Part shown: piece after piece, positions 29,957 to 50,836 of the stretch | How positions within the stretch are numbered: position 1 is the stretch's first letter | Layout of the letters: each line of letters opens with the position of its first letter | NCBI GenBank assembly: GCA_016124275.1 | Contig: WGOA01000018.1 | Span: forward strand, 1 to 64,000 | DNA from: Bacteroidota bacterium | Lineage (GTDB): Bacteria; Bacteroidota; Bacteroidia; Chitinophagales; BACL12 | Length of the DNA stretch: 64,000 nucleotides | Direction of reading: 5' to 3' | Program-made: the position numbers and the translations under genes | Notes under the pieces: model-generated | What the model was told of the DNA's origin: nothing | What the model saw: only the letters and a program-made list of their open reading frames with translations | Databases searched by the model: none

Positions 29957-32161
29957 ATGAAACGAACTTTCCTTTTCGTCCTCATGGCCTCTTCGCTGGG
30001 GGTCTTTGGTCAACGCGCTAAGCTGGAGAAAGCCGATAAGCTCTTCAACAGTTATGCCTTTTATGAAGCTGCCGGACTCTACGAGCGAATTCTTGAGAAA
30101 GAAGACATCACGCAGGCCAAAATCAACCTGGCCGAGTGCTATCGCCTGACCCAGGACTTTGAAAAAGCGGAGTTCTGGTACAGCCAGGCTGTTGGAAAAT
30201 CCAGCATCAACCCCATTTTCAAGCTGTACTACGGCCAGATGTTGCAAAGCAATGGCAAGTGCCAGGAAGCGGAATACTGGTTCCGCGAGTATGCCCGTTT
30301 GCGCCCGGAAGATTCCCGGGGAATCCGCTTTGAGGCCGCCTGCGACCAAATGGTGGGCTACTACAGCGATGAAGGGCGCTACACCTTAGCGCCGCTTGCC
30401 TTTAACACCCCCTTCTCCGATTTTGCGCCGGCCTTTTACGAAGGCGGGCTCGTTTTTGTTTCAGCCCGCGAAGATGGTCGCGGTGGCGACCAGGTAAGTG
30501 CCTGGAGCGGTGAGCCTTTTCTGGACCTTTTTTATGCGGTGGAGACCGATCAGGGCTTCCGCGAGCCGGAGCGCTTTGGTGGCACTGCATTGAACAGCAA
30601 GCACCACGAAGGGCCCTTGTCTTTCAGCGCAGATGGACAGAAAATCTTTTTTACCCGCAACAACAGCGTCAGCGAATCGGTCAAAGAAGAAAACGCGCGC
30701 ACCGTGCGCCTCAAAATTTTCACCGCAGAGCGCAGCGGTCGCAACAACTGGGGCAAGGTTGAAGAACTGGATTTCAACAGCGGCGACTATTCCAATTCAG
30801 CGCCCGCGTTGCTGGCCACTGGCGACGTGATGGTGTTCAGTTCCACCATGCCCGGTGGTTTTGGTGGCTCTGATTTGTACATGAGCAAACTGGTAGAAGG
30901 ACGTTGGTCAAAACCTGTTAACCTGGGTGGCGGCATCAATACAGAAGGCGACGAGATGTTCCCCTTTCTGCATGCCGACAGCACCTTGTACTTTTCCTCT
31001 GACGGCCATGCCGGTTTAGGCGGTCTGGACGTTTTTTACGCTGATCCTGAAGAAGGATCCTGGCGCAAGACCCAGAACATGGGCTGGTCCTTGAATTCGC
31101 GCTGGGATGATTTCGGGCTCATCTGGGACCAGGACCGGACCAAGGGATACTTTGCCTCCAACCGCCCCGGAGGCTCCGGTGGTGACGACCTCTATACCAT
31201 GACGCACAACTGGGTCCGGGTCAACGGTCTGGTTGTGGATGCCCTGACCAACGAGCCACTGCCGGGAGCGGACGTGCGCATTATCGGCGGCCCTTCTGAC
31301 AAGAACCTGGTGGCTGACGAAAAAGGTGAGTTCGCCCTTGATCTGCCAAAGGACATCGCAGTGGCTTTATTGGCCAACCACGAAGGGTATGCCAATGGCC
31401 GCAAAGAAATTCAAACCCCGCTGTTGGGTGCCACGGAGACGATTCTTATTCCCCTGGAATTGGATCGCATTAAAATCAACATTCACGCGCTGGACAGCGA
31501 GACCCGCAAACCCATTCCCGGCGTTTCGTTTACCTGGGACAACAGTTGTTCCGGCACCTCAGACCGCTTTGAAAGCAATGACCAGGGCCGCCTGAGCATG
31601 CCCATATCCCGCTCTTGCGATTACACCCTTGGCGCTCGCGTAGAGGGTTATGCTGATGCTGTATTGCCGGTGAGCCGCACCGCACTTGTCCGGGATTCTG
31701 AGACCGATGTGTTTGTTGAACTGAACCCTGTGCATACGGGCATGACGGTGGAATTGCACAACATCTACTACGACTTTGATGAGGACTTCATCCGCCAGGA
31801 TGGCGAGCAGGACCTGATTCAACTGGCGGAGTTTATGCGCCGCAACGCCGGCATCACCATTGAACTGGGTTCGCACACGGATGCCCGAGGCAGCAAGGCT
31901 TACAACCGCAAGTTGAGCCAGCAGCGCGCAGAATCGGCGGTTGCCTACCTGGTTAAGTTGGGTGTGGAACCCGAGCGCGTTGTGGCCATGGGCTACGGCG
32001 AATCGGAAGTGCGCAACCGCTGTGCAGATGACGTGACCTGCACTGATCAGGAGCACCAGTTCAACCGCAGAACCCAGTTCCGCATCACCGGCATGAACCA
32101 GGAAATCAACAGTACGGACAAAGAGCAGATTCCGGTCAATACGGGCAAGCGAGCTAAATAA
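29957..32161 (+). CDS. PorE-like protein: TPR, PD40 propeller, carboxypeptidase-regulatory and OmpA domains
   Basis: 734 residues from ATG 29957, giving a signal peptide that ends VFGQ near residue 19. Domains in order: TPR-like helices (about 22-130), a beta-propeller with PD40 motifs (SFSADGQKIFFTRNNS, YFSSDGHAGLGGLDVFY; about 140-415), a carboxypeptidase-regulatory fold (VNGLVVDALTNEPLPGA; about 420-505), and an OmpA peptidoglycan-binding domain (about 596-710) with SHTDARGSKAYNRKLSQQRA. This is the architecture of PorE, the T9SS-associated protein that links the outer membrane machinery to peptidoglycan, though paralogues with this layout are numerous in Bacteroidota. It is 11 bases upstream of a PorP/SprF gene, which supports a joint role. 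Confidence 0.85.
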   Translation: MKRTFLFVLMASSLGVFGQRAKLEKADKLFNSYAFYEAAGLYERILEKEDITQAKINLAECYRLTQDFEKAEFWYSQAVGKSSINPIFKLYYGQMLQSNGKCQEAEYWFREYARLRPEDSRGIRFEAACDQMVGYYSDEGRYTLAPLAFNTPFSDFAPAFYEGGLVFVSAREDGRGGDQVSAWSGEPFLDLFYAVETDQGFREPERFGGTALNSKHHEGPLSFSADGQKIFFTRNNSVSESVKEENARTVRLKIFTAERSGRNNWGKVEELDFNSGDYSNSAPALLATGDVMVFSSTMPGGFGGSDLYMSKLVEGRWSKPVNLGGGINTEGDEMFPFLHADSTLYFSSDGHAGLGGLDVFYADPEEGSWRKTQNMGWSLNSRWDDFGLIWDQDRTKGYFASNRPGGSGGDDLYTMTHNWVRVNGLVVDALTNEPLPGADVRIIGGPSDKNLVADEKGEFALDLPKDIAVALLANHEGYANGRKEIQTPLLGATETILIPLELDRIKINIHALDSETRKPIPGVSFTWDNSCSGTSDRFESNDQGRLSMPISRSCDYTLGARVEGYADAVLPVSRTALVRDSETDVFVELNPVHTGMTVELHNIYYDFDEDFIRQDGEQDLIQLAEFMRRNAGITIELGSHTDARGSKAYNRKLSQQRAESAVAYLVKLGVEPERVVAMGYGESEVRNRCADDVTCTDQEHQFNRRTQFRITGMNQEINSTDKEQIPVNTGKRAK

Positions 32162-32172
32162 TAGTATTTATT

Positions 32173-33096
32173 ATGCGTAACATTTTTTTACTTATTGTTT
32201 TGCTGGTTGGCTTGTCGTCAACACTCGTTGCGCAGCAGGAAGCGCGCTATGCGCAGTTTCTTTTTCACAAGCTAGCCCTTAACCCCGGTTATGCCGGAGC
32301 CCGGGACGTGCTCTCTATGGCTGCCTTGTACCGCCATCAGTGGACCGGGATTGACCAGGCTCCCAGAACGCTGGCGCTCAGCCTTCATGCCCCCCTTCGC
32401 CAGGAACGGCTTGCCCTCGGATTTCAATTGGTCCACGACCGCCTGGGCTTGGCTACAAGCACAGGCCTCTACTCGGATTGGGCTTACCGCATTCCTGTGG
32501 GCAAGGGCAAACTTTCCATAGGTCTGCAGGCCGGTTTGGTCAATCAACAGTTAGCCCTCACCAGCGCTGTGCCGTTGGATGGCAACGATCCCTTCCTCCA
32601 GCGCAATCAAAACCATTGGTTTCCCAATGCTGGTGCCGGCCTGTACTACGCTTCTAAAACCTGGTACGCCGGTTTAAGCGCTCCACAATTGACGCAAAGC
32701 AGCATCACCGATCTGGCGGGCTCGCAAGCCAGTCAATCCCGGCACTATGCGGCCATGGGTGGTTATGCCTGGAAGATCAACCCCGATGTAAAACTTCATC
32801 CACAAGCGCTGCTGTTGGTGGCAGAAGGGGCCCCTGTTCAGGCAGAAGGCAACCTGAGTGTGCTAATCTCCGAGCGCTTCTGGACGGGTGTCGGTTACCG
32901 CAGCTCGTCCACAGCGGTTTTCAACCTCGGGTACGAAATGGTTTCCGGGTTGCGCTTCGGCTATGCCTACGACCTGACCCTTGGTGCGTTCAGTGCGCAA
33001 ACCGGTGGCAGCCACGAGCTGATGATCGGCATGGACATTGGCCGCAACCCCGCCCGATTCCTGTACCCCCGGCAATTGAGTTCGCCGGTTTTCTGA
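32173..33096 (+). CDS. PorP/SprF-family outer membrane protein (first copy)
   Basis: 307 residues with a signal peptide ending LVAQ. Family marks are ARYAQFLFHKLALNPGYAGA near the N-terminus, RHQWTGIDQAPRTLALS, and the C-terminal barrel strands LRFGYAYDLTLGAF and SHELMIGMDIG. PorP/SprF proteins are 12-14-stranded barrels of the T9SS; SprF is needed for export of SprB-type adhesins with type B sorting domains. Starts 11 bases after the PorE-like gene and ends 54 bases before the giant adhesin, so the three probably form one operon. Confidence 0.92.
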   Translation: MRNIFLLIVLLVGLSSTLVAQQEARYAQFLFHKLALNPGYAGARDVLSMAALYRHQWTGIDQAPRTLALSLHAPLRQERLALGFQLVHDRLGLATSTGLYSDWAYRIPVGKGKLSIGLQAGLVNQQLALTSAVPLDGNDPFLQRNQNHWFPNAGAGLYYASKTWYAGLSAPQLTQSSITDLAGSQASQSRHYAAMGGYAWKINPDVKLHPQALLLVAEGAPVQAEGNLSVLISERFWTGVGYRSSSTAVFNLGYEMVSGLRFGYAYDLTLGAFSAQTGGSHELMIGMDIGRNPARFLYPRQLSSPVF

Positions 33097-33150
33097 TGGG
33101 TCCGCTAAACCCTCCCAACTTTCTCTCCCAACCGGTTTGACGCCGGTGAA

Positions 33151-36100
33151 ATGATTGCTCTGATGAACCGAATGTTACCGCTTTCCAAACCAAGTGCAGC
33201 CTCTTGCAAGCTGGGATATTCCCCATTGGCCTTGCTGCTGATTATTTTAATGGCAGTTATGCCCCGGCAGGTCCATGCCCAGTGCGACATTGAAATCCAG
33301 GGCGGTGGCTGCTGGTTTGTCGCCCCCGAAGTGGATCAGCTGCACGGCGATGCGCCGATTTTTCTGCGCATTACCACGTACACGGAGGCCATTACAGCCA
33401 CGTTGTCCATGCCGGCGCGTCCCAGCTTCACGCCTATTGTCGTCAATATTCCTGCGGGCGGATTCCACAGCATGGATCTGACGCCTTACAAGGCGCTGAT
33501 TGAAAGCTCGCCGTTCAATGCCGTGCTCAACACCGGTTTGTTGTTGGAAGTGACCGGCGTCGCTACTGCATACTATGAAGTGGCCAGTACGGTAAACCCT
33601 GGCATCTTCAACCTCAAAGGTGATGTGGCACTGGGTCGCAACTTTTTCATTCCTGCACAAACCGCTTTTGTCAACAACACCAGTTTGCCCGGTCGAAGTG
33701 GTTTTGTGGTTGTGGCAACGGAAGACAACACACAAGTCACCATCACACCAAAGAACAACATGGTGGGGCATCCTTTGTCGGCAGGTCCATTTACCATCAC
33801 GTTGGATCGGGGAGAGACCTATTCCGCGCTGGCCACGGGCTTTAATCCGGCTGACCGTTTGCACGGTTCAGAAGTTACTTCCACCAAGCCCATCACCGTC
33901 ACCATTTTTGACGACAACGTTTGGGTGCCCGGACACTACGATCTGTGCGGCGACCAGATTGTACCCATTGAGCATATTGGAACAGAATACATTGTGGTGA
34001 GAGGCAATGACGCTACCAATGAACGCATTTATGTTTTAGCCACTCAAAACAGCACACAGGTTTATGTGGATGGCGGCGCAACGCCGGTGGCCACCCTGAA
34101 CCGCGGCCAGCAGTACAGCCGGTCCTTCACCGGAGCCTCGCATTACATTACCACGTCCAAGCCCACCTACGTGATGCACATGGCGGGTATAGGCGGTGAG
34201 TTTGGCCACTCTCAAATGCCTCCAATCGGTTGCAGCGGGGTTTCGGAAATGGGTTTTGTGCGCACTTCTTCAGGCCAGTTTGGCCTGATGATTCTGGTGC
34301 CTACCGGCAGTGAAGATGACTTCATCATCAACGGCAACCCTTCGCTCATTTCAGCTTCCTCGTTTACCACAGTCCCCGGTACCGGCGGGCAGTGGAAGTC
34401 TTATTATTCCAACATCGGGTTGCCAGTGGGCCAAAACTTTGTGAAGAACACCACGGCCAACTTCCACATGGGCATCCTCAACAACCTTGGGGCATCGACC
34501 GTGTACGGTTATTACACCCGCTTCGGACTTTCACAACCTAACCTCGGACCGGATCAGATTGCCTGCAACCGCGATTTGCTTCCGATGACCTTGCAGGCGC
34601 GCATCACGGCTGACGAGTTTTTGTGGTCAAATGGCAGCACGGGCAGTGAGCTGACCGTGACAGAACCTGGTACCTATTGGGTGCGCAGTCGGGCAGGTGG
34701 TTGTACGGATCAGTACGACACCATCACCATCACCAACATTGATGCCCGCCTGATGGGGGCTCGTCAGTTTGATTTCTGTGGAAGTTTTTTGGTTTCCATC
34801 CCAACGAATTTTCCGGGCAGCGATGAGGGTACCTTGACCGTGCACGCCGATTCCTTGAGCGCGGTGAACGGCACCAGCCCCATGGGATCGCTGACCCTGA
34901 CTGCAGAAGGTACGTATTATGTGCGCTTGGAAACCGATTGTGGTTGTTATACGGTTAAGGGCATTGTGTTGCGCTCATTTTGTCCTCCATTGGCCGAAGA
35001 CGATGCCTACACAACCCCGGAAGATGTTGTGATCAACCTGCCCGTGCTGGGCAACGATACAGACCCCGATGGTTCGCTCGTTCCTGGCTCTGTAACAGTG
35101 GTTATTCCCCCGGCACATGGAACGGCAGTGGCCAACCCGGATGGTACCATAACCTATACGCCAAATGCCAACTGGCATGGCACCGATACCTTGACCTACC
35201 AGGTGAGCGACAACGATGGCCTGACTGCCCAGGCACAGGTGCTGATTGCGGTATTGCCGGTGAACGACCCACCCGTTGCCGTGGACGATGCGGCTACTAC
35301 ACCGGAGGACGTTGCCGTAACCATTCCTGTGTTGGCCAACGACAGCGATCCGGACAACCCGATCAATCCCGCTAATGTTACCGTAACGGTGGCTCCGGCA
35401 CATGGAACCGTCGTGGTGAATCCGGATGGCAGCATTACCTATACCCCCAATGCCAATTGGCACGGCACGGAGACCTTTACCTATGTTTATTGCGATGATG
35501 ACGGCGGTTGTGATGCGGCCCTGGTCACCGTAACGGTAACCGACGTGAACGATCCTCCCGTTGCGCTGGATGATGTGGCCAGTACGCCGGAAGACACGCC
35601 ATTGAGTATCCCTGTTCTGGTCAACGACAGCGACCCGGACGGCAGTTTATTGCCCGGCTCCGTGGTGGTGCTCACGCCACCTGTTCACGGTGAAGTGGTG
35701 GTGCAGCCGGATGGCAGCCTGCTGTACACCCCCGATCCTGACTACCACGGTCCGGACAGCCTGGTGTACCAGGTTTGCGACGACGATGGGGCTTGTGCGC
35801 AGGCTACGGTTTCCATTGCGGTAACCGATGTCAACGATCCACCTGTTGCAGTGGACGATGTGGTCAACACGCCAGAGGATACCCCCATCAACATTCCCGT
35901 TTTGGGCAACGACAGCGATCCCGACGGAACGTTGAATCCCGGCAGTGTTGTGGTCGTGGATGAGCCTGCCAACGGCACGGTTGTGGTGAATCCGGACGGA
36001 ACCATCACGTACACCCCCGATTCCAACTACCACGGTCCGGACAGCTTTACCTATCAGGTCTGCGATGACGACGGCGCGTGTGATGTAGCTACCGTTACGG

Positions 36101-39100
36101 TGAACGTACAAGATGTCAATGATCCCCCTGTTGCGGTGGATGATGTGGCCTCTACCCTGGAAGACACTCCGGTGACCACGGTGGTCTTAGGCAATGATTC
36201 GGATCCGGATGGTACCTTGATGCCTGGCTCCGTAACCATTGTTACGGGTCCTGCACACGGCACGGTTTCCGTGAATCCAGACGGCAGCATCACGTATACG
36301 CCCGCGCTGAACTACAACGGCCCGGACAGCTACAGCTACCAGGTTTGCGATGATGACGGCCTTTGTGATCAGGCCAATGTCACCTTGACGGTAGGACCGG
36401 TCAATGATCCTCCCGTTGCGGTGGATGATGTGGAAACAACCCTTGAAGACACGCCGGTAACAGTGGATGTGCTCATCAACGACAGCGATCCGGACGGTCC
36501 GTTGGATCCCTCCAGCGTCACGGTGATCAGTGGTCCCTTGCACGGCTCGGCCTATGCTGATCCTATTACGGGCGAAGTGATTTATACCCCTGCGCCAGAT
36601 TGGTTCGGAACCGATGTGCTGACTTACCAGGTCTGTGATTTTTACGGTGCCTGCGACCAGGCCACCATCACCATCACGGTTGGTGATGTCAACGATCCGC
36701 CGATTGCAGTGGATGATGCGGCATCAACTCTGGAAGACACACCGGTGAACATCGCTGTGCTGGGCAACGACAGCGATCCGGATGGAACGTTGGTGCTCAG
36801 CTCGCTGGTGGTCATCAGCGGCCCTTCGAACGGAACCATCACTGTTCTGCCCGACGGTACAATAACCTATGTTCCCGGCCTGGACTTTAATGGCTCAGAC
36901 AACTTTACCTACCAAATTTGCGATGATGACGGTGCTTGCGACCAGGCTGTGGTGACGGTCAATGTTGGCGATGTCAACGATCCTCCCATTGCGGTAGATG
37001 ACGCTGCCAGCACACCAGAAGATACGCCGGTGACTATTCCCGTGCTGGTGAATGACAGCGATCCGGATGGAACCTTGGTGCCCGGTTCGGTGACCGTGGT
37101 CAGCGGTCCTGCGCATGGCACAGTCACGGTGAATCCCGATGGCAGCATTACCTATACCCCTTCGTTGAACTACCACGGCCCGGACAGTTTTGTGTACCAG
37201 GTCTGCGATGACGACGGCGCTTGTGATCAGGCCACGGTGAGCATCAGCGTTGGTGATGTCAACGACCCGCCCATTGCTGTGGACGATTCGCGCAGCACAC
37301 TGGAAGATGTGCCGGTTATCATACCCGTACTGGACAACGACAGCGATGTGGACGGAATTTTGGTACTGGGAAGTTTGAGTATTGTAACGCCTCCGGCACA
37401 TGGTACGGTGGTCGTCAATGCTGACGGAACGATCACCTATACGCCCAACCTGGACTACTTCGGCACGGATGCGTTCGTCTATCAAATTTGCGACGATGAC
37501 GGTGCTTGCGATCAGGCCACCGTTAGCATTAACGTCGGCGATGAAAACGACCCGCCCATTGCCGTCGATGACGTGGTGGTTACCCCGGAGGACACTCCGG
37601 TTACAACCCCGGTATTGGTCAACGACAGCGATCCAGATGGCGTTTTGGTGTCCGGTTCGGTGAGCATCGTCAGTCCGCCTGCCCACGGTTCGGTGGTTGT
37701 GAATCCTGATGGCTCCATCACCTACACGCCCAATGCCAACTACCACGGCCCGGACAGCTATACCTACCAGGTTTGCGATGATGACGGTGCATGCGATGCT
37801 GCGCTGGTGAGCATTACGGTAACGGATGTGAACGATCCTCCGGTTGCTGTGGACGATGCGGTGACTACGCCAGAGGATACGCCTGTGCTGATTTTGGTGT
37901 TGAACAACGATTCTGATTCCGATGGAAGTTTGGTTCCCGGTTCAGTGAGCATCGTTAGCGGTCCGGCACATGGAACCGTGCTCATCAATCCTGATGGCAG
38001 CATTACCTACACGCCCAATGCCAACTACCATGGCCCGGATGCCTTCAGCTACCAGGTTTGCGATGACGACGGCGCCTGCGACCAAGCTACCGTAACCATT
38101 TCTGTGTTGGATGTGAACGATCCACCGCTGGCTGTTGACGATGCAGTGGTTACCCCTGAAGATACGCCGGTAACCGTAACGGTTTTGGTTAACGATAGCG
38201 ATGCAGACGGCGTGCTGGTCATTTCCTCCGTAACCCTTGTTACTCCGCCACTTCACGGAACAGTAGTATTGAACCCTGACGGAACGATTACGTATTCACC
38301 GGATTTCAATTACCACGGTCCGGACAGTTTTGTGTACCAGGTCTGTGACGATGACGGTGCTTGCGATGAAGCTACCGTAACCATTTCTGTGTTGGACGTC
38401 AACGACCCGCCGTTTGCCAATGATGATATTGACCATACCTCAGAAGACGTGCCGGTAACGACCGAAGTTCTGGCCAATGACCACGATCCGGATGGCACGC
38501 TCGATCCTGCTACCGTGGCGATCGTCCTTGCGCCCGCGCATGGAACAGTAGTGGTCAATCCGGACGGTACAATTACTTATACCCCTGATCCAGGCTGGAA
38601 TGGCACCGATCATTACAGCTACCAGGTTTGCGATGACGACGGCGCTTGTGACCAAGCCACAGTAACCATTACGGTCGGCGACGTCAACGATCCGCCGATT
38701 GCGGTAGATGATACCGAGTTTACGCCGGAAGACACCCCGGTTACGACGGTAGTGTTGGGCAACGACTACGACACGGACGGTTTCCTTGTACCGGCTTCCG
38801 TAACTATTCTGGTTGCACCGAGCCATGGCACACTGGTGGTGAATCCTGACGGCAGCATTACCTACTCGCCGGAACCGGATTGGTTCGGCACGGATGCTTA
38901 TACTTACCAGGTCTGCGATGACGATGATGCGTGTGATGCAGCTGTGGTAACCATCACGGTAGGTGACGTCAACGATCCGCCGATTGCTGTGGACGATACC
39001 GACTTCACGCTGGAAGACACACCCGTCACGACCACCGTGCTGGCCAACGATCACGATCCTGACGGTTGGCTGGTTCCCGGCAGCGTTACGATTCTTATCG

Positions 39101-41523
39101 CTCCAGCGCATGGAACGGTCGTGGTGCATCCCGATGGGACCATTACGTATACCCCTTCGCCCGGTTTGTTTGGCGTAGATGTTTATACCTACCAGGTGTG
39201 CGACAATGACGGCCATTGCGATGATGCAGAGGTGACCATTACGGTGGGTGACGTCAACGATCCTCCAATCGCGGTTGACGACCTGGTTAGCACCGCTGAA
39301 GACACGCCGGTAACCGTTCCTGTTATGGCCAACGACAGCGATTCCGACGGATTTCTGGTGCCGTCATCAGTCAGTATTCTGGACGCGCCCAGCAACGGGT
39401 TGGCCAGCGTGAACCCCGATGGCAGCATCACGTTCTACCCGAACCCGGATTGGTACGGCACGGATACGCTGGTGTACCAGGTCTGTGATGACGATGGTGC
39501 CTGCGATCAGGCCTTGGTCATCATCAGCATTGGCGATGTCAACGATCCGCCGATTGCGGAAGATGACATCATCAGTACCCCGGAAGATATTGCCGTGGTG
39601 ATTCCGGTGTTGATCAACGATTACGACCCGGATGGTTACCTGGTACCCGGCAGTGTCACCATACTAACGCCACCTGCTCATGGTACGGTAACGGTCATGC
39701 CAGACGGCACGACTGTGTACACGCCTACCCCGGACTTCAACGGCAACGATTCTTACACCTACCAGGTCTGCGATGATGACGGACTCTGCGACGACGCTAC
39801 GGTAACCATTGTGGTTGGCGATGTGAACGACCCGCCAGTGGCGGTGGACGACGCGCTGCCCGGCAGCGAGGATACGCCGATCAACGTGGTGGTCTTAGCC
39901 AACGACTACGACATTGACGGGGTACTGGTGCCCGGTTCCGTCGTGGTGCTTACGGCTCCGCTGCATGGAACCACCGTGGTACTCGCAGACGGTAGCGTAA
40001 CCTATTCCCCCGATTTGGATTGGAACGGCGTGGATTCGTTCCGCTACCAGGTGTGCGACGACGACGGCCTTTGCGACGACGCCTGGGTAGTCATCAGCAT
40101 AGGAACAGTTGTGGACGGTCCGGTGGCGGTCAATGACCTGATCACGACGCCCGAAGACAGTGCCATCACGGTGGACCCACTCGTGAACGATTCTGATCCC
40201 GACGGCGACCTTGACCCCACTTCGGTGTCCATCATCAGCGGTCCTTCGAATGGAACGGCCAGCGTGGATCCGGCAAACGGAAACGTAACCTATACACCCA
40301 ATACAGATTGGTACGGTCTGGATACCATAGTGTATGTTGTGTGTGACCTGACCGGCCTGTGCGACAGCGCGCTCATCATCATTTTGGTTACGCCAGTTCC
40401 GGATGCTCCGGTGGCTGTTGACGACTACGCCACTACGCCTGAAGATGTGCCGGTTACCATTGACATCCTGGCCAACGACTTTGATGTGGAGACGGACATC
40501 AATCCCGGCTCGGTCACGATTCTGACCGATCCTTTGAACGGCAGCGTGACGGTTAACCCGGACGGTACGGTTACCTACACGCCGGGTGCAGGGTTCTTCG
40601 GCACGGACAGCTTCCGCTACCAGGTTTGCGATTTCACAGACCTTTGCGATGATGCCTGGGTTTTTGTAACAACAGGCGAAGTGCCGGTTGCGCTCGTGGC
40701 GGTTGACGATGCGGCTTCCACGCCGGAAGAGCAACCCGTCGTGATTCCTGTCCTGGTCAATGACCTGCCCGGTGACTACCCGATTGTTCCCGGCTCCCTG
40801 GATATCCTAACGGATCCGGAGAACGGCACCTTGAGCGTGGATCTGGTCACAGGAGTGGTTACCTATACCCCCTTTGACGACTGGTGCGGAACAGACGGCT
40901 TTGAATACCTGATCTGCGACAGCTGGGGTTATTGCGATACCGCCTGGGTGACCATCACCGTTGCTTGTGTCGATCTGGTAGCCAACGATGATGTGGCATC
41001 CACCCCTTCCGGTGAGCCGGTGGCCATTGTTATTCTGGCCAATGATTCCCCCAATGCTGACCCGGACTGCGTGACACTTCTTACCACGCCGTTGCACGGC
41101 ACAGTGGTCATCAACGCGGATGGTTCGGTGCTTTATACGCCAGAGATTGGCTATGTGGGCACCGACTGCTTTACCTATGAAGTTTGCGACAGCCTGGGTG
41201 TAGAGCGCGATGATGCGCTGGTTTGCATCACCATGGCTGAAGTGGACATCATTATCCCGGAAGTGTTTACCCCCAACGGCGACGGGTTCAACGAGACCTT
41301 TGAAATCATCGGGATCGAGCAATTCCCCAACAACCAGTTGATGGTCTTCAACCGCTGGGAGAACCTGGTGTACCAGGCCGATGGCTACGCCAGCCAGTGG
41401 GATGGCATCAACATGACCAATGGCCAGCAATTGCCGGATGGCACCTACTTCTATGTCCTGGTGCTGGATCCCAAGCAAAAGGACAGCCCCATCTTTAAGG
41501 GATTCGTGGCTATACAGCGTTAA
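33151..41523 (+). CDS. Giant T9SS type B adhesin with IgGFc-binding-like head and 22 cadherin-like repeats
   Basis: 2790 residues. A signal peptide ends at HAQ near residue 44. Residues about 90-490 resemble the IgGFc-binding protein N-terminal domain (GFVVVATEDNTQVTITP, GTEYIVVRGNDATNERIYVL, YVMHMAGIGGEFGHSQMPPI). A cysteine-containing Ig-like linker follows. From residue 615, 22 tandem domains of about 95 residues run to about residue 2700. Each has an AVDD..STPEDTPVT start, a Ca2+-type loop NDSDPDG, HGTVVVNPDGSITYTP, YQVCDDDGACDQATV and a DVNDPP linker. The last 85 residues are the gliding-motility-associated sorting domain (VFTPNGDGFNETFEI ... LPDGTYFYVLVL). It resembles SprB in logic: huge, repetitive, type B, and flanked by PorP/SprF genes. 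It is predicted to be a surface adhesin for gliding or attachment. Confidence 0.92.
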   Translation: MIALMNRMLPLSKPSAASCKLGYSPLALLLIILMAVMPRQVHAQCDIEIQGGGCWFVAPEVDQLHGDAPIFLRITTYTEAITATLSMPARPSFTPIVVNIPAGGFHSMDLTPYKALIESSPFNAVLNTGLLLEVTGVATAYYEVASTVNPGIFNLKGDVALGRNFFIPAQTAFVNNTSLPGRSGFVVVATEDNTQVTITPKNNMVGHPLSAGPFTITLDRGETYSALATGFNPADRLHGSEVTSTKPITVTIFDDNVWVPGHYDLCGDQIVPIEHIGTEYIVVRGNDATNERIYVLATQNSTQVYVDGGATPVATLNRGQQYSRSFTGASHYITTSKPTYVMHMAGIGGEFGHSQMPPIGCSGVSEMGFVRTSSGQFGLMILVPTGSEDDFIINGNPSLISASSFTTVPGTGGQWKSYYSNIGLPVGQNFVKNTTANFHMGILNNLGASTVYGYYTRFGLSQPNLGPDQIACNRDLLPMTLQARITADEFLWSNGSTGSELTVTEPGTYWVRSRAGGCTDQYDTITITNIDARLMGARQFDFCGSFLVSIPTNFPGSDEGTLTVHADSLSAVNGTSPMGSLTLTAEGTYYVRLETDCGCYTVKGIVLRSFCPPLAEDDAYTTPEDVVINLPVLGNDTDPDGSLVPGSVTVVIPPAHGTAVANPDGTITYTPNANWHGTDTLTYQVSDNDGLTAQAQVLIAVLPVNDPPVAVDDAATTPEDVAVTIPVLANDSDPDNPINPANVTVTVAPAHGTVVVNPDGSITYTPNANWHGTETFTYVYCDDDGGCDAALVTVTVTDVNDPPVALDDVASTPEDTPLSIPVLVNDSDPDGSLLPGSVVVLTPPVHGEVVVQPDGSLLYTPDPDYHGPDSLVYQVCDDDGACAQATVSIAVTDVNDPPVAVDDVVNTPEDTPINIPVLGNDSDPDGTLNPGSVVVVDEPANGTVVVNPDGTITYTPDSNYHGPDSFTYQVCDDDGACDVATVTVNVQDVNDPPVAVDDVASTLEDTPVTTVVLGNDSDPDGTLMPGSVTIVTGPAHGTVSVNPDGSITYTPALNYNGPDSYSYQVCDDDGLCDQANVTLTVGPVNDPPVAVDDVETTLEDTPVTVDVLINDSDPDGPLDPSSVTVISGPLHGSAYADPITGEVIYTPAPDWFGTDVLTYQVCDFYGACDQATITITVGDVNDPPIAVDDAASTLEDTPVNIAVLGNDSDPDGTLVLSSLVVISGPSNGTITVLPDGTITYVPGLDFNGSDNFTYQICDDDGACDQAVVTVNVGDVNDPPIAVDDAASTPEDTPVTIPVLVNDSDPDGTLVPGSVTVVSGPAHGTVTVNPDGSITYTPSLNYHGPDSFVYQVCDDDGACDQATVSISVGDVNDPPIAVDDSRSTLEDVPVIIPVLDNDSDVDGILVLGSLSIVTPPAHGTVVVNADGTITYTPNLDYFGTDAFVYQICDDDGACDQATVSINVGDENDPPIAVDDVVVTPEDTPVTTPVLVNDSDPDGVLVSGSVSIVSPPAHGSVVVNPDGSITYTPNANYHGPDSYTYQVCDDDGACDAALVSITVTDVNDPPVAVDDAVTTPEDTPVLILVLNNDSDSDGSLVPGSVSIVSGPAHGTVLINPDGSITYTPNANYHGPDAFSYQVCDDDGACDQATVTISVLDVNDPPLAVDDAVVTPEDTPVTVTVLVNDSDADGVLVISSVTLVTPPLHGTVVLNPDGTITYSPDFNYHGPDSFVYQVCDDDGACDEATVTISVLDVNDPPFANDDIDHTSEDVPVTTEVLANDHDPDGTLDPATVAIVLAPAHGTVVVNPDGTITYTPDPGWNGTDHYSYQVCDDDGACDQATVTITVGDVNDPPIAVDDTEFTPEDTPVTTVVLGNDYDTDGFLVPASVTILVAPSHGTLVVNPDGSITYSPEPDWFGTDAYTYQVCDDDDACDAAVVTITVGDVNDPPIAVDDTDFTLEDTPVTTTVLANDHDPDGWLVPGSVTILIAPAHGTVVVHPDGTITYTPSPGLFGVDVYTYQVCDNDGHCDDAEVTITVGDVNDPPIAVDDLVSTAEDTPVTVPVMANDSDSDGFLVPSSVSILDAPSNGLASVNPDGSITFYPNPDWYGTDTLVYQVCDDDGACDQALVIISIGDVNDPPIAEDDIISTPEDIAVVIPVLINDYDPDGYLVPGSVTILTPPAHGTVTVMPDGTTVYTPTPDFNGNDSYTYQVCDDDGLCDDATVTIVVGDVNDPPVAVDDALPGSEDTPINVVVLANDYDIDGVLVPGSVVVLTAPLHGTTVVLADGSVTYSPDLDWNGVDSFRYQVCDDDGLCDDAWVVISIGTVVDGPVAVNDLITTPEDSAITVDPLVNDSDPDGDLDPTSVSIISGPSNGTASVDPANGNVTYTPNTDWYGLDTIVYVVCDLTGLCDSALIIILVTPVPDAPVAVDDYATTPEDVPVTIDILANDFDVETDINPGSVTILTDPLNGSVTVNPDGTVTYTPGAGFFGTDSFRYQVCDFTDLCDDAWVFVTTGEVPVALVAVDDAASTPEEQPVVIPVLVNDLPGDYPIVPGSLDILTDPENGTLSVDLVTGVVTYTPFDDWCGTDGFEYLICDSWGYCDTAWVTITVACVDLVANDDVASTPSGEPVAIVILANDSPNADPDCVTLLTTPLHGTVVINADGSVLYTPEIGYVGTDCFTYEVCDSLGVERDDALVCITMAEVDIIIPEVFTPNGDGFNETFEIIGIEQFPNNQLMVFNRWENLVYQADGYASQWDGINMTNGQQLPDGTYFYVLVLDPKQKDSPIFKGFVAIQR
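34993..41250. repeat. Array of 22 tandem approximately 285-bp coding repeats
   Basis: Each unit encodes one Ig/cadherin-like domain of about 95 residues. Units 3-17 are the most alike; unit 1 and units 18-22 are more diverged, and the last three lose the DVNDPP linker. Identity is imperfect at DNA level, so this is an old array and not a recent expansion. Confidence 0.9.
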
Positions 41524-41570
41524 GCGCGCGCGATAAGCGCGGGCTGCAGCCCCAGCTTAAGCATCCATGA

Positions 41571-41610
41571 CCCCCCGAGCAGGTAAATCCTGTTCGGGGG
41601 GTTTTCTTTT
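41571..41610 (+). terminator. Intrinsic terminator of the adhesin operon
   Basis: Stem CCCCCCGAGCAGG with CCTGTTCGGGGGG (one G-U pair), loop TAAAT, followed by TTTTCTTTT. It begins 48 bases after the adhesin stop codon. Confidence 0.88.
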
Positions 41611-42140
41611 GGGCATGGCTAAAACCCTTTTCCGGTGTTAGGCCCATCGTTTCAGACGAGCGCAGCTTGTGAGCGCGCAGCTTTTCCCTGAATTCTATTG
41701 GTTAGTCAGGCCAACAGGCCTTGTTTTTACCCGCCGTGGAGTGGGTTGTGACGCCGTTTTGCTGCGTTCTGTTTCGGGCGAAGGGGCTTGGTTTGCTGGC
41801 ACAAGGGCTCCTTTTATCCACCACCGGCATTTTTTTTCGCTGCATGCGATGCAGGCCATTCTGAGTGCCCGAGGTTTATGCATGCATCCCAGAAATGTAT
41901 GTCGCTGCCCTTGACAAGTGGGCAGGAGAAATCAATCTTGACAGTAGGATCGAAAAAGTGCCGGGATTGTTGCTCCAAAATGTTTGCACGCCAGAAACAC
42001 CAAAAGCGTCAAAAACCAGCATTAAATGCCTGACTCCGTGACACCGAAACGCCATTCGGGGGGAAAGGGACGGTTCCATTTCTTTAACAACCAAACAAAC
42101 ACAAGCACCATGAACAGCACATAAACATTGCCCAGCATAC
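41611..42140. other. 530-base intergenic region before the second sprF-like gene
   Basis: No convincing gene is seen on either strand. It holds an exact copy of the dispersed 14-mer at 41772-41785 and presumably the promoter of the downstream gene; the last 60 bases are rich in A and C. No exact TAnnTTTG box was found near the start codon. Confidence 0.5.
41772..41785. repeat. Copy of dispersed 14-mer, intergenic
   Basis: Exact TTTCGGGCGAAGGG in noncoding DNA between the adhesin and the second PorP/SprF gene, showing that the motif is not merely a codon-usage effect. Confidence 0.6.
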
Positions 42141-43076
42141 ATGAATCGAATTTTACTTGCGCTACTCCTTGCTTTTGCCGCCAGCCCTCTGTTTGCCCAA
42201 CAGGAGGCCATGTACACCCAGTACATGTTCAACAAATTACTCATCAATCCAGGATATGCCGGCAGCCGGGCTGCTACCAGCATTACCATGCTCTACCGCG
42301 ACCAATGGACAGGGTTTAACGGAGCACCGAGAACCGGAACCTTTAGTGTTCACGGGCAATTGAAGAACCCAAAAGTGGCTCTGGGCATGACGGTCATCAA
42401 CGACCGCCTCGGCCTCCAGAACCAGACCGGGATCTACGCCAACTATGCGTATCGCCTACCCCTCGGCGATGGCCGCCTGAGCTTTGGGGTGCAAGGGGGC
42501 TTTGACCACTACGAAGTGGCCCTGAGCACTGCGGTGCACATTGACGCTGGTGACCCCAGCCTGGCAGCCGATCTGAGTACCTTCAGCCCCAACGTGGGTG
42601 CCGGAGTGTACTACCAGAGCGAGGAGTTCTACGCCGGGGTTTCCGCACAGCGCCTGATCGAAAACGATCTGAGCGGACGGACGCTTCTCAGCGAGGACAA
42701 CGCCTTTGCCCGTCAGTCCAGGCACCTCAATGCCATGATGGGCGGTGTGGTGGACATCAGCGATGGTGTCAAGTTCCGGCCTGCTGTGTTGGTCAAGTAC
42801 GCTCCGGGGGCCCCGGTTCAGGCGGACTTCAACGCCAGCTTCCTGTTTGTGGAGCGCTTCTGGGCCGGGGTCAGTTACCGAACCAATGCCTCTATTGACG
42901 GCATGGTGGAGTTCCAGGTCAACCGCCAGTTGCGCGTAGGCTATGCCTACGATCACCAGATCAACGAAGTGGGCCCTTACACCACTGGCTCGCACGAAAT
43001 CCTGGTAGGCTTCGACCTGGACTTTGGGCGCAACCGGATTGTTACGCCCCGAATGATGGCACCGCGTTACTTCTAA
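42141..43076 (+). CDS. PorP/SprF-family outer membrane protein (second copy)
   Basis: 311 residues. Signal peptide ends PLFAQ; mature protein begins QEAMYTQYMFNKLLINPGYAGS, the family signature, with YRDQWTGFNGAPRTGTFSVH after it and closing strands LRVGYAYDHQINEVG and SHEILVGFDLDFG. It is transcribed separately from the adhesin operon because a strong terminator and 530 bases intervene. In Flavobacterium johnsoniae sprF lies directly after sprB, so this downstream copy is the positional counterpart; the upstream copy may serve the same or another cargo. Confidence 0.93.
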   Translation: MNRILLALLLAFAASPLFAQQEAMYTQYMFNKLLINPGYAGSRAATSITMLYRDQWTGFNGAPRTGTFSVHGQLKNPKVALGMTVINDRLGLQNQTGIYANYAYRLPLGDGRLSFGVQGGFDHYEVALSTAVHIDAGDPSLAADLSTFSPNVGAGVYYQSEEFYAGVSAQRLIENDLSGRTLLSEDNAFARQSRHLNAMMGGVVDISDGVKFRPAVLVKYAPGAPVQADFNASFLFVERFWAGVSYRTNASIDGMVEFQVNRQLRVGYAYDHQINEVGPYTTGSHEILVGFDLDFGRNRIVTPRMMAPRYF

Positions 43077-46491: not shown

Positions 46492-47184
46492 ATGCTAAAG
46501 GCATTCGTCTTCTTGTTGCTGGCTGCTTCGTTCAGCGGTTGCACCCAGCCGGCTGTGTTCCCGGAGCCCCCCACCCCCCTTCGCTACCTGGCGCTGGGCG
46601 ACAGCTACACCATTGGCGAGAGCGTGGCTACCGAAAGCCGATGGCCCGTTCAGTTAACCGCGGCCCTTCAGCAGCAAGGCCTGCCTTTGGACAGCCTGCA
46701 CATTATTGCGCGGACGGGGTGGCGCACGGATGAGCTGCTGGCAGCGGTTGGCGCTCAAAATTTATCGCCCGATTGGGACCTGGTCTCCTTGCTTATTGGG
46801 GTCAATAACTTTTACCAGGGCCGCCCGATGGACGTTTACGAAGCTGAGTTTCGCGCGCTGTTGGATACCGCTGTGTTTTTGGCCGGGGCAAGACCTGACC
46901 GCGTCTTGGTCGTCAGCATTCCGGATTATGCCTACACGCCTTTTGGCGCGGGGCTTCCCGATCCGCTTGCAGTAAGCAACGGCATTGACTCCTTTAATGC
47001 GGTAAACCGCCGCGTGGCGTTGGAAAAGAACGTCACCTGGATGAACATTACGGATTTGTCGCGGCGAGGGCTGGCGGAACCAGCGTTGGTGGCCCTTGAC
47101 GGGCTTCACCCGAGCGGCCTGCAATACAACCTTTGGGTGCAAGAGCGTTTGGCTCCGGCTGCCGGGTTGCTGCTTGCGCCGTAA
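46492..47184 (+). CDS. SGNH/GDSL-type esterase, lipoprotein
   Basis: 230 residues from ATG 46492. A lipobox Phe-Ser-Gly-Cys follows FVFLLLAASFSGC. Block I is LALGDSYTIGE (nucleophile Ser), block III is LLIGVNNFYQG (oxyanion Gly and Asn), and block V is LDGLHPSGLQYNLWV (Asp-x-x-His). It is a complete active site, so an envelope-located lipase/esterase or thioesterase is likely. The natural substrate is unknown. Confidence 0.9.
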   Translation: MLKAFVFLLLAASFSGCTQPAVFPEPPTPLRYLALGDSYTIGESVATESRWPVQLTAALQQQGLPLDSLHIIARTGWRTDELLAAVGAQNLSPDWDLVSLLIGVNNFYQGRPMDVYEAEFRALLDTAVFLAGARPDRVLVVSIPDYAYTPFGAGLPDPLAVSNGIDSFNAVNRRVALEKNVTWMNITDLSRRGLAEPALVALDGLHPSGLQYNLWVQERLAPAAGLLLAP

Positions 47185-47191
47185 TTGCGGG

Positions 47192-47250
47192 CTTTCGCCG
47201 TTGTTTCGGGCTGGTGCAGCAACTGCGGTCTTGCGCCGTTGTTTGGGGCT
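47192..47250. repeat. Two imperfect direct repeats in the spacer before the sugar dehydrogenase
   Basis: CTTTCGCCGTTGTTTCGGGCT at 47192 recurs as CTTGCGCCGTTGTTTGGGGCT at 47230, 38 bases away, and a shorter third relative lies near 47172 within the end of the SGNH gene. Meaning unknown. Confidence 0.5.
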
Positions 47251-47332
47251 TGGGCTGCAGCTGTTGGCCGGCGCAGCAATCGCCAAGCGGAGCAGCGTTC
47301 CTGAATCGGGTTGTCGTCGTAGTTTTGGCGGC

Positions 47333-48823
47333 ATGTGGGTTTACCCTTTGTTGCGTGGGCGTTGTGCAGGGTCGCTCCTGCTTGTTGCCTTGCTTGTCGC
47401 GAATTCCGCCATTGCCCAGCGCCCTTCGCTGGATGCCTACGCTATTCCGGATCCTGTTCCTCTGGTAGCGGAGGTAGTGGCGCGCAACCTGGATTTGCCC
47501 TGGGATCTGGTTTGGGGTCCGGACAGTCAATTATGGTTTACCGAAAGAACCGGTGCGCTTAAACGCTACGATCCCTCCACAAGAGAAATTATGGTGCTGG
47601 ACACCGTGCCCGGGGTCTTCAATTCCACCGACAATTCCGGACTCCACGCGCTGTTGCTGCACCCGAATTTTGCTGTGGAGCCCTGGATCTACGTCAGTTA
47701 CACCTATACCGAAGACAACCTCCGGCTTTCGCGATTTTGGTACGGTCCGGAAGGGTTGCAGGATGAAGAGATCCTGCTGGAAATGGCGGGGAAGGACTCC
47801 CACAACGGTGCGCGACTGCTGTTGGACCAGACGGGTAAACTGCTCTTCGCCACAGGCGATGCCTATAACCCTTTCTTGCCCCAGGACTCCTTGAGCCCTA
47901 ACGGCAAATTGCTCCGGCTTGAGTTAGATGGAAGCATACCTGTGGATAATCCCTTTCCGGGCAATGCCCTGTACACGCTTGGCCACCGCAATATGCAAGG
48001 CCTGGTGCAGTTGCCCAACGGTGAAATCTGGTCAACGGAGCACGGCGAAGACGCGGACGATGAACTCAACCGGCACATCCCAAGCCGCAACTACGGTTGG
48101 CCCGATGTTGCCGGCGCCTGTGATGCTGCTGACGAAGCGGCCTTCTGCGAAGTTTATGCCGTCGTGGAGCCGCACCTGACCTGGACGCCGACCGCTGGTC
48201 CCAGCGGGCTGGATTATTACGACCATCCGGCTATCCCCCAATGGCAGGGCTGTCTGATCGCGGGCTTTCTAAAACGCCGCGGCGATCCCGGGCAGCGCAT
48301 TCGCGTGATTCAACTGGATGATGACGGCCTGCAGGTTTTGGGTGTTCGCGACTATTTGCACGAAGGTCCGGTGGTGCCTACAGACCTTGGACAGCCCAAC
48401 CAGATTGGCGTTTTTGGCCGCATCCGCGACGTGCTAACCGCCCCGGATGGCAGTGTGTACCTCTGCACGTCCAACCGGGAGTTCAACGGGCAATATGCCC
48501 TTACCGAAGACGACGATCGCATCATCCGCATCTACAATCCCGCGTGGAATCCGGTTCCCTGCCTGGGCGACTGCCTGAGCATTTATCCCAGTCCGGTTCG
48601 CAGCGGCCAGCAACTGTACCTGAAGTTTGGCGAATCCATCACGGGCGCTGCCCGGGTAAGTTTGTTCAATGTTTCCGGCCAGCGCGTTTTGGATGCCCAA
48701 GTCACAACCGGACCTTTTATTATGTTGCCATTGAACGCGCTGTCTCCAGGACCTTACGTATTGGAAGTGATCTATCCGGACGGAAAGCAAATACGGAGCC
48801 GCAAGATTTTGGTGCTTCCCTGA
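47333..48823 (+). CDS. PQQ-dependent sugar dehydrogenase-like protein with T9SS type A sorting domain
   Basis: 496 residues from ATG 47333; signal peptide ends SAIAQ near residue 29. The glucose/sorbosone dehydrogenase propeller (about 40-400) shows LPWDLVWGPDSQLWFTERTG, the His-containing SHNGARLLLDQTGKLLFATG, and EHGEDADDELN with NYGWPDV, all typical of soluble aldose sugar dehydrogenases. A sorting domain (LSIYPSPVRSGQQLYLKF ... LSPGPYVLEV) ends the protein. Expected to oxidise sugars outside the cell if PQQ is available; no PQQ synthesis genes are in the window. Confidence 0.88.
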   Translation: MWVYPLLRGRCAGSLLLVALLVANSAIAQRPSLDAYAIPDPVPLVAEVVARNLDLPWDLVWGPDSQLWFTERTGALKRYDPSTREIMVLDTVPGVFNSTDNSGLHALLLHPNFAVEPWIYVSYTYTEDNLRLSRFWYGPEGLQDEEILLEMAGKDSHNGARLLLDQTGKLLFATGDAYNPFLPQDSLSPNGKLLRLELDGSIPVDNPFPGNALYTLGHRNMQGLVQLPNGEIWSTEHGEDADDELNRHIPSRNYGWPDVAGACDAADEAAFCEVYAVVEPHLTWTPTAGPSGLDYYDHPAIPQWQGCLIAGFLKRRGDPGQRIRVIQLDDDGLQVLGVRDYLHEGPVVPTDLGQPNQIGVFGRIRDVLTAPDGSVYLCTSNREFNGQYALTEDDDRIIRIYNPAWNPVPCLGDCLSIYPSPVRSGQQLYLKFGESITGAARVSLFNVSGQRVLDAQVTTGPFIMLPLNALSPGPYVLEVIYPDGKQIRSRKILVLP

Positions 48824-48850: not shown

Positions 48851-50836
48851 TCAGCGCCCTTTCCAAAGCTTGCGTTGAACGCGCTCGGAATCAATGCCCA
48901 AATCCAGAATGTACAGGCCCGGTGTCCAGGTATCTGCCGTTTGGCGAATAAGGTAGTTGCCCGAAGCAAGCGTTTGGGCCGGGGCATGCGCCACCCGTTG
49001 CCCGGCCGCATTGTAAACGCTCCATTGAACCGATGCTTCAGCACGCAGCAACAGGTTGGCGCTAAAGGAGCTTTCGAAGGGGTTGGGTCCGGCACTCAGC
49101 AGCAGGTTGCCGTTGCCCGGTGCCAGGGCCGTTGTGTCCAGCGGGGGGAGGGGTGGCATTCCCTCAATCGGCGGCGACGGCGTAAAGCTGCGCTGGATTC
49201 GCTGCGTGCCGTTGAGCGATTCCCACAACAACACAGCATTCTCTATGGTATGGTCTGGATTGCTGATGTCTTCCATGTGCCAGAATTCTGCCTGAGCGCG
49301 ATCGGCATTGAGATCGAGCAGCACGTAGCCATGACCGTCCAATTCGCTCCACTTGATGTGCTTGTTGGCCTGCGAAATCAGGAACGAAGCCGAAGCCGAG
49401 CTGCCAAAACCGTAGGTTTCACCTTCGTCAAAATTCTCTCCGGTAACACTGGGTACAAGAAACTCAACGGCCAGCGAGCCTTCGCCGGTTTCGGGGTTGT
49501 AGTTCTCCGGTAAGCGCGGATTGGGGGCCAAATCCAGTGCCATGGACACGTGAAAATCACCGGTTACAACCACAGTATTAGTTATGTTATTGTCATCCAG
49601 GTAGTTGTACAGCGCATCCCGTTCTGCGGTGTAGCCTGCCCAATTTTCAAAAATAATGGGGTCGTCTTCCAGCGCGGAGAGGTGGCCCATCATCACTTGG
49701 TTGGCCAGCACTTTCCACTGGCCGGTTGAGGCGGCCAGACCGCTTTGCAGCCAGGCCATTTGCGCGGGTCCGATCAGGCGGTGATCAGGGCTTTGGTAAA
49801 TGGGATCGCTGGCATCGCTGGCGAAACGATCGCGGTCATACAACCGGGTGTCCAGCAGGAAAACTTCTGCCAAATCGCCGTAGGGCAGCGAGCGCCAGAT
49901 GCGCAGGGAGTCCACCGGATCTTCGCGCAGGGGCAGCCATTCATAGGCGGCTTTGATGGCGGCCCACTTGCGATCGCGGTAGCTGCCAAACTCCTCATCG
50001 TGCCGCAAACTGGTATCGCGCAGGGCATCAACCACAATGTCGTGATCGTCCCAAATGGTGGAAAACGGATGCACCTGGTGAACCCGTTGTAAATCCGGAT
50101 CCAGGCGGTACTGCGAGTAGCGCGCGCGGTAATCCTGCAGCCTGTAGATCTCCGCATCGGGCTCGTGTGTGCGGTCATCCGGACCACCGCCCCCTTCGTA
50201 AAAGTAATCGCCCAAATGCAGAATCAAGGCAACGTCATTGCGCGCTGCCAGAGCCGCGTACGCGTGAAAGTATCCAGCCCGGTAATCCGAGCAGGACACG
50301 GCCGCCAGCCGCAAGCGATCCAGGTTGCCCGTGGTGCCTGTTCGGGTTCGCCCGATCACTGACTTTCGCCCGAGTGCCTCAAACTGGTAGTAGTAATGTT
50401 GGTTGGGCAACAACCCTCCAACGTCCACCTTAACCGTGTAATCGCGGGGAGCGTCAGCGAGCAAGCTCCCTTCGGCCAGCACCGGGCTCATGGAAGCCGT
50501 GAGCGCCATGCGCCAGCGCACTGCTATGGGTTCGGGCGAAGGGCTCTCCGGCGTTACGCGAGTCCAGAGGATGACCCCATCCGGCAGCGGGTCACCGGAC
50601 GCAACGCCGTGCAGAAAAGGAGCAAAACTTGTGGCGATTGCCTGCCTGCGGGCGCGCTCGTCGGATACAGGCCCACCTGGGTTCCGGTCTTCCAACAGCT
50701 GAACATCCAGTGGGGCAAAGGTTGGTTCCTGCGCCGACTGTACCCCCTGGCTTTGGGCGGCTGCCATGCTGCAAAGCAACGCGGCGATCAAAAAACGGAA
50801 ACGGATTTTCGGGAGAACGGGAACGCGTTTTATCAT
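48851..50836 (-). CDS. PhoD-family alkaline phosphatase with T9SS type A sorting domain
   Basis: 661 residues; signal peptide ends MAAAQS. The Fn3-like PhoD N-terminal domain (FLHGVASGDPLPDGVILWTR, about 75-170) precedes the metallophosphatase core with SCSDYRAGYFHAYAAL, LHLGDYFYEGGGG, TIWDDHDIVVDA and VVTGDFHVSMAL. These supply the Fe/Ca ligands of PhoD phosphodiesterase/phosphatases. The last 75 residues form the sorting domain (LSAGPNPFESSFSANLLL ... WTPGLYILDL). Likely a secreted phosphate-scavenging enzyme. It is convergent with the sugar dehydrogenase (27 bases apart). No Tat twin-arginine motif is seen, unlike classical PhoD, in keeping with Sec/T9SS export. Confidence 0.92.
   Translation of the reverse strand: MIKRVPVLPKIRFRFLIAALLCSMAAAQSQGVQSAQEPTFAPLDVQLLEDRNPGGPVSDERARRQAIATSFAPFLHGVASGDPLPDGVILWTRVTPESPSPEPIAVRWRMALTASMSPVLAEGSLLADAPRDYTVKVDVGGLLPNQHYYYQFEALGRKSVIGRTRTGTTGNLDRLRLAAVSCSDYRAGYFHAYAALAARNDVALILHLGDYFYEGGGGPDDRTHEPDAEIYRLQDYRARYSQYRLDPDLQRVHQVHPFSTIWDDHDIVVDALRDTSLRHDEEFGSYRDRKWAAIKAAYEWLPLREDPVDSLRIWRSLPYGDLAEVFLLDTRLYDRDRFASDASDPIYQSPDHRLIGPAQMAWLQSGLAASTGQWKVLANQVMMGHLSALEDDPIIFENWAGYTAERDALYNYLDDNNITNTVVVTGDFHVSMALDLAPNPRLPENYNPETGEGSLAVEFLVPSVTGENFDEGETYGFGSSASASFLISQANKHIKWSELDGHGYVLLDLNADRAQAEFWHMEDISNPDHTIENAVLLWESLNGTQRIQRSFTPSPPIEGMPPLPPLDTTALAPGNGNLLLSAGPNPFESSFSANLLLRAEASVQWSVYNAAGQRVAHAPAQTLASGNYLIRQTADTWTPGLYILDLGIDSERVQRKLWKGR
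50530..50543. repeat. Near-exact copy of dispersed 14-mer
   Basis: GTTCGGGCGAAGGG, with a perfect TTCGGGCGAA core, inside the PhoD gene where it again encodes Ser-Pro-Ser-Pro-Glu. Confidence 0.55.

Follow-up and report, generated by a model that had tools for sequence, protein, structure and literature searches.

A rearranged PorE/PorP/type B adhesin module with two carrier genes around one adhesin in a Bacteroidota bacterium

Type B substrates of the type IX secretion system (T9SS) are carried and anchored by outer-membrane barrels of the PorP/SprF family, mostly each by its own, and for a subset of them PorE probably provides a link to peptidoglycan (PMC9143113, PMC12618676). The C-tail of SprF bears a Cys-X-Cys motif that is disulfide-bonded to GldK, which allows SprB to move (PMC12635249). 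F. johnsoniae also has five PorE/PorP/type B operons with cognate carriers, and the substrate Fjoh_3952 is static (PMC12618676). PorE-linked operons have been proposed as the static kind (PMC12618676, PMC9143113), and none of the published mobile substrates is encoded in one (PMC12618676). The PorE-PorP-type B complex of P. gingivalis is the known precedent (PMC9143113); Asp576, Asn584 and Arg591 of its PorE bind the DAP of peptidoglycan (PMC7192894). The locus described here is a rearranged version of this module: its parts are ordinary and its layout is unusual.

The window, by which we mean the whole 64,000-nucleotide stretch of DNA that was analysed, carries on its plus strand, in this order, a PorE-like gene (29957-32161, with its ATG start at 29957), a first PorP/SprF carrier gene (PorP1, 32173-33096), the gene of a 2790-residue adhesin (33151-41523), a strong intrinsic terminator (41569-41603, a 15-bp stem with a T-run) and a second PorP/SprF carrier gene (PorP2, 42141-43076), all as a preliminary description of this DNA had it. 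That description also took the first three genes for one apparent operon, and the spacing bears this out: since only 11 nt separate the PorE-like gene from PorP1 and 54 nt PorP1 from the adhesin, they read as one unit, in which PorP1 is probably co-transcribed with both neighbours. The terminator, by far the strongest of the region, lies about 46 nt past the adhesin stop codon, with about 540 nt more to PorP2, and from it we infer that PorP2 is transcribed separately; a search 5' of PorP2 for a sigma-70-like or Bacteroidota-type promoter found none. The adhesin-PorP2 gap of 618 nt is an outlier (the median between cargo and carrier in the surveyed loci is 11.5 nt). A scan of the interval (41524-42140) for a conserved RNA or leader found its sequence not to be conserved, and Rfam gives a single sub-threshold match there, overlapping the terminator. 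The window is otherwise rich in T9SS cargo: type A sorting domains occur in the proteins encoded at 14030-17074, 18722-23857, 47096-48823 (plus strand) and 48851-50836 (minus strand), although two of the four barely exceed the model cut-off.

The adhesin is an acidic protein of 292 kDa that begins with an IgGFc_binding domain, continues with 22 Big_9/tandem-95 repeats of 95 residues and ends in a type B C-terminal domain (CTD; 41239-41523, plus strand), which scores 62.9 bits with TIGR04131 (cut-off 35) and 91.9 bits with CHU_C (cut-off 27) and thus marks the protein as a type B substrate. Pfam finds no SprB repeat family in it, only Big_9/cadherin/CshA and IgGFc_binding matches. Two profile HMMs were trained, with the window's own genome excluded, on CTDs that belong to PRYF-tailed carriers (mostly PorE-linked; the static class) and to Cys-tailed carriers; in a 5-fold test they assigned 90/90 and 15/18 correctly. 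The adhesin CTD scores 92.1 bits with the static-class model against 82.2 with the cysteine-class model (+9.9), and the genome's 26 CTDs divide into 7 of the static class and 19 others. A plasmid search with the N-terminal domain returned distant relatives only, with no PorP annotated beside the best match. N-terminal domains of such adhesins have apparently been swapped among loci (L090:10146-11402, L089:11687-17296 and window 33151-35010).

The PorE-like protein, a putative periplasmic peptidoglycan anchor according to Pfam and NCBIfam profiles, has the domain architecture of PorE (TPR-like, the TPR falling below the Pfam cut-off, PD40 propeller, CarboxypepD_reg and OmpA). To this extent the earlier label of a PorE-architecture protein stands; its scores lie below the NCBIfam cut-offs (387 against 600 bits for PorE, 417 against 620 for CHU_0125), and by these profiles it is not a strict member of the family. 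The closest solved chain to its OmpA domain is the P. gingivalis PorE C-terminal domain 6TOP, and the aligned equivalents of the three DAP-binding residues are conserved. P. gingivalis PorE is a lipoprotein; the window protein, in contrast, has a signal peptide in which a pattern search finds no lipobox. This is the rule for its kind, the lipobox being absent from 113 of 117 PorP-linked PorE-like proteins, which would consequently need a membrane partner. A standalone PorE-like protein encoded on another contig of the same genome (L292:6479-8542, minus strand, contig C7) does have a lipobox, unlike the soluble PorP-linked ones, and is probably the core PorE of the genome.

Both carriers match their family profiles far above cut-off (PF11751 at 237.6 bits and TIGR03519 at 261.2 bits for PorP1; 271.5 and 276.9 bits for PorP2), are 43-44% identical to each other and fall in one genus-level clade of the PorP tree that consists mostly of PorE-linked carriers. 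Neither contains a single cysteine, so the name SprF given to them earlier does not hold: the Cys-X-Cys tail is missing, PorP1 ending in YPRQLSSPVF and PorP2 in TPRMMAPRYF. PorP1 and PorP2 stand outside the clade (SH-aLRT 100) into which the sampled Cys-tailed carriers fall, in a tree that does not include F. johnsoniae SprF. Nor is either one the core PorP of the T9SS, an identity that had been raised for both and is ruled out: the core copy is a separate gene beside gldKLMN on contig C41, and PorP1 and PorP2 lie outside its clade. The predicted structure of PorP2 is a barrel (pLDDT 82) whose best PDB match is 8gl6_F, a chain of the T9SS RemA-CTD complex that we read as PorV (TM 0.64), with FadL next. 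Residues 297-308 of the model have very low confidence, i.e. the C-tail would be free or disordered past the last strand.

The genome encodes SprA, GldKLMN and GldJ, so that both a static and a mobile fate are possible in this organism. Could the protein be an SprB-like gliding adhesin, as the preliminary description named it, moved along the track by SprF-type carriers? The gliding genes and the resemblance to F. johnsoniae SprB/SprF, likewise a giant type B adhesin with a carrier of the PorP/SprF family, speak for it. SprF, however, has its disulfide-forming tail and no PorE neighbour, and the SprB repeats are of another family; here the carriers are cysteine-free, the CTD is in the PorE-linked class, a PorE-like gene is present and the published mobile substrates all come from outside such operons. 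On the cysteine-free carriers, the carrier tree and the CTD class we reject the gliding reading as very improbable, and the SprB-like label with it.

The explanation that best fits what is observed (genes, domains, order, synteny, conservation, tail and CTD classes) is probably that of a statically anchored type B adhesin with PorP2 as main carrier, the carrier tail being docked on the PorE-like protein. The binding partners, the static fate, the carrier choice and the docking are its inferred part. The adhesin would leave by way of Sec and then the SprA translocon; its CTD would be taken up by a dedicated PorP/SprF barrel that keeps it as an outer-membrane anchor, the periplasmic C-tail of the carrier would dock on the soluble PorE-like protein, and the OmpA domain of the latter would grip peptidoglycan, so that the giant fibre would be tied to the wall instead of the gliding track. 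This reading is drawn because the carriers lack cysteine, the CTD is of the PorE-linked class and the PorE-like protein keeps the peptidoglycan-binding residues; the static fate as such is assigned by analogy with F. johnsoniae. In the Fjoh_3952-3951-3950 operon and its four sisters the same three kinds of protein are encoded, and Fjoh_3951 is a PorE-linked carrier without a gliding role, as proposed here for the carriers of the window (PMC12618676). The genes of the static kind of module (PorE-like, PorP, type B cargo) are adjacent in the window too, with their order inverted: the F. johnsoniae operon runs cargo-carrier-PorE, whereas the window runs PorE-carrier-cargo, followed by the terminator and a second carrier. 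With the P. gingivalis PorE-PorP-PG1035 system the locus shares the PorE architecture, the peptidoglycan-binding residues, a PorP barrel and a type B substrate (PMC9143113, PMC7192894), but in P. gingivalis the one core PorP acts as the carrier. A dedicated carrier and anchor set for one type B adhesin, as first described, is thus retained, although not as a self-contained one, the SprA translocon and the GldKLMN motor being encoded elsewhere.

A survey of 208 distinct PorPs shows how far the layout departs from the usual one. For 160 of them the gene immediately 5' encodes a cargo, and 107 of these 160 then have PorE; the orders PorE-PorP-cargo and PorE-PorP-cargo-PorP occur in the window only, in keeping with the earlier remark that two carriers around one cargo are unusual. 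Tandem cargo-carrier arrays (for example CTD-PorP-PorE-CTD-PorP at L100, contig C480 of genome G027, and also L133, L142 and L218) likewise place two PorPs around a type B cargo, but in these the first PorP is preceded by a cargo gene of its own, whereas that of the window is preceded by PorE. Another two-carrier layout, CTD-PorP(PRYF)-PorE-second PorP, the second with an unrelated tail, occurs in three Cytophagales-type genomes (L146, L163, L183).

The unusual order might be an artefact of chance neighbours or chimeric assembly, two unrelated CTD/carrier loci having been joined through the adhesin repeats; this is a draft genome of 96 contigs with a repetitive gene, and the N-terminal domains of the adhesins differ between the two congeners. 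At the DNA level, however, identity between the repeats does not exceed about 75%, and the rest of the genome contains no near-identical copy, which makes joining through them unlikely. The flanks agree with the congener on both sides as well: one contig of the congener (G001) runs asnS-rpoN-PAP2-PorE-PorP1-start of a giant surface protein, and a second runs adhesin end-terminator-PorP2-OMP-kinase, both contigs breaking inside the gene. We regard an artefact as extremely improbable. In the congener the N-terminal part that follows PorP1 is of another type, and PorP1 might have another cargo there; the N-terminal domain encoded after it is FG-GAP, and the IgGFc_binding type is found together with a carrier of its own on a different contig.

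Which carrier the adhesin uses is the central question of the locus, and PorP2 most likely is its main, cognate carrier, to judge from comparative evidence. The CTD and PorP2 are each 74% identical to their congener counterparts, PorP1 lags at 48%, and PorE is 53% identical; three further ortholog pairs likewise show similar divergence of CTD and carrier (60/66, 63/55 and 53/61% identity), this rate matching being based on two genomes and four loci. PorP2 is favoured because it diverges in step with the CTD, which PorP1 does not, and also because it lies 3' of the CTD gene, as carriers do in 160 of the 208 cases, its adjacency and the terminator being kept in the congener. The adhesin is therefore not remote from both carriers in the one congener, as it might have been: its C-terminal part is kept beside PorP2 there. 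Against PorP2 stand its own lack of a 3' PorE gene, the outlying gap before it and the fact that it is PorP1 that shares the apparent operon with the adhesin. Over 104 static pairs, mirror-tree correlations of PorP1 and PorP2 with the window CTD (rho 0.06 and -0.15) did not tell the two carriers apart.

In a functional PorE-PorP1-adhesin operon, PorP1 would instead be the cognate carrier, and PorP2 would serve some other cargo. The tight spacing up to the adhesin and the terminator before PorP2 fit this arrangement, as does the argument of PMC12618676 that a carrier should be produced in stoichiometry with its cargo, and a client in need of a carrier exists: an orphan static-class type B protein with no PorP or PorE nearby is encoded on contig C47 of the same genome (L291:8192-10105). 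Its CTD is the only static one of the genome without a neighbouring carrier. The 7 static CTDs equal in number the static-type carriers with cysteine-poor tails when the core copy is excluded (7: PorP1, PorP2 and those on C92, C64, C73, C49 and C10). But a carrier 5' of its cargo with no CTD gene before it is found at only one other surveyed locus (L271), PorP1 diverges far faster than the CTD, and it is the adhesin-PorP2 adjacency that is conserved; we consider PorP1 an unlikely cognate carrier. That both carriers accept the same CTD, as redundant or dosage copies, is a somewhat doubtful alternative. Related CTD/carrier pairs of F. johnsoniae have been shown to crosstalk, Fjoh_3951 and Fjoh_1646 both acting on one CTD (PMC12618676), and PorP1 and PorP2, with their 43-44% identity, belong to one clade and both keep an invariant PR; the published crosstalk, however, concerns CTDs with 68% identity, the rates of PorP1 and PorP2 differ greatly, and their tails are not alike. 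With PorP2 as the main carrier, PorP1 would be a second, faster-evolving one, and may act as the partner of PorE, as an overlapping or backup carrier, or for the orphan static CTD.

The tails of the carriers follow a more general pattern. Among 110 PorPs from 14 genomes, not chosen by tail, PorE is the neighbour of 29 of the 32 carriers with a PR[YF]F-type tail and of 8 of the 78 with any other tail (Fisher 5e-16); within one genus (G058, G062, G093) the split is 16/16 against 0/13. A PRYF-class query, and hence a biased sample, yielded 79 loci from named genomes with 82 complete carriers; the tail is [ST]PR[YFN]F in 76 of these, and PorE follows in 71 of the 76. All 30 static carriers that were aligned have the PR, and so do PorP1 and PorP2, in which a short extension comes after it. 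Cys-tailed carriers mostly lack PorE, but several do have a PorE neighbour. In four genomes a Cys-tailed PorP directly precedes a gldJ-like gene (L082:5587-8599, which is contig C70 of the window's own genome, and L221, L239 and L243; GldJ identity is confirmed for L082), a position that would suit a track-linked carrier. We found no description of the PRYF tail in a full-text literature search of incomplete coverage. With phylogenetically independent pairs the supported contrasts number just 3-6 (median p = 1), too few to separate the association of tail and PorE from an old split between clades.

One tentative proposal, which we would not yet call probable, is that the C-tail of the carrier is a docking code that decides what becomes of a type B adhesin, with a matching CTD subclass, and that the window holds a static module. 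An invariant PR with an aromatic end ([ST]PR[YF]F and variants) would dock on a soluble PorE-like anchor and make the adhesin static, a cysteine tail would attach to the GldK/GldJ track and make it mobile, and the altered tail of PorP1 (SSPVF) would mark a second carrier with a changed role. The tail pattern, confounded with clade as it is, possibly reflects such a code. The locus thus poses the questions why there are two carriers and whether the tail chooses wall or track, and what deserves following up is the general tail pattern: if the code is true, the fate of many uncharacterised Bacteroidota adhesins would be predictable from a few residues.
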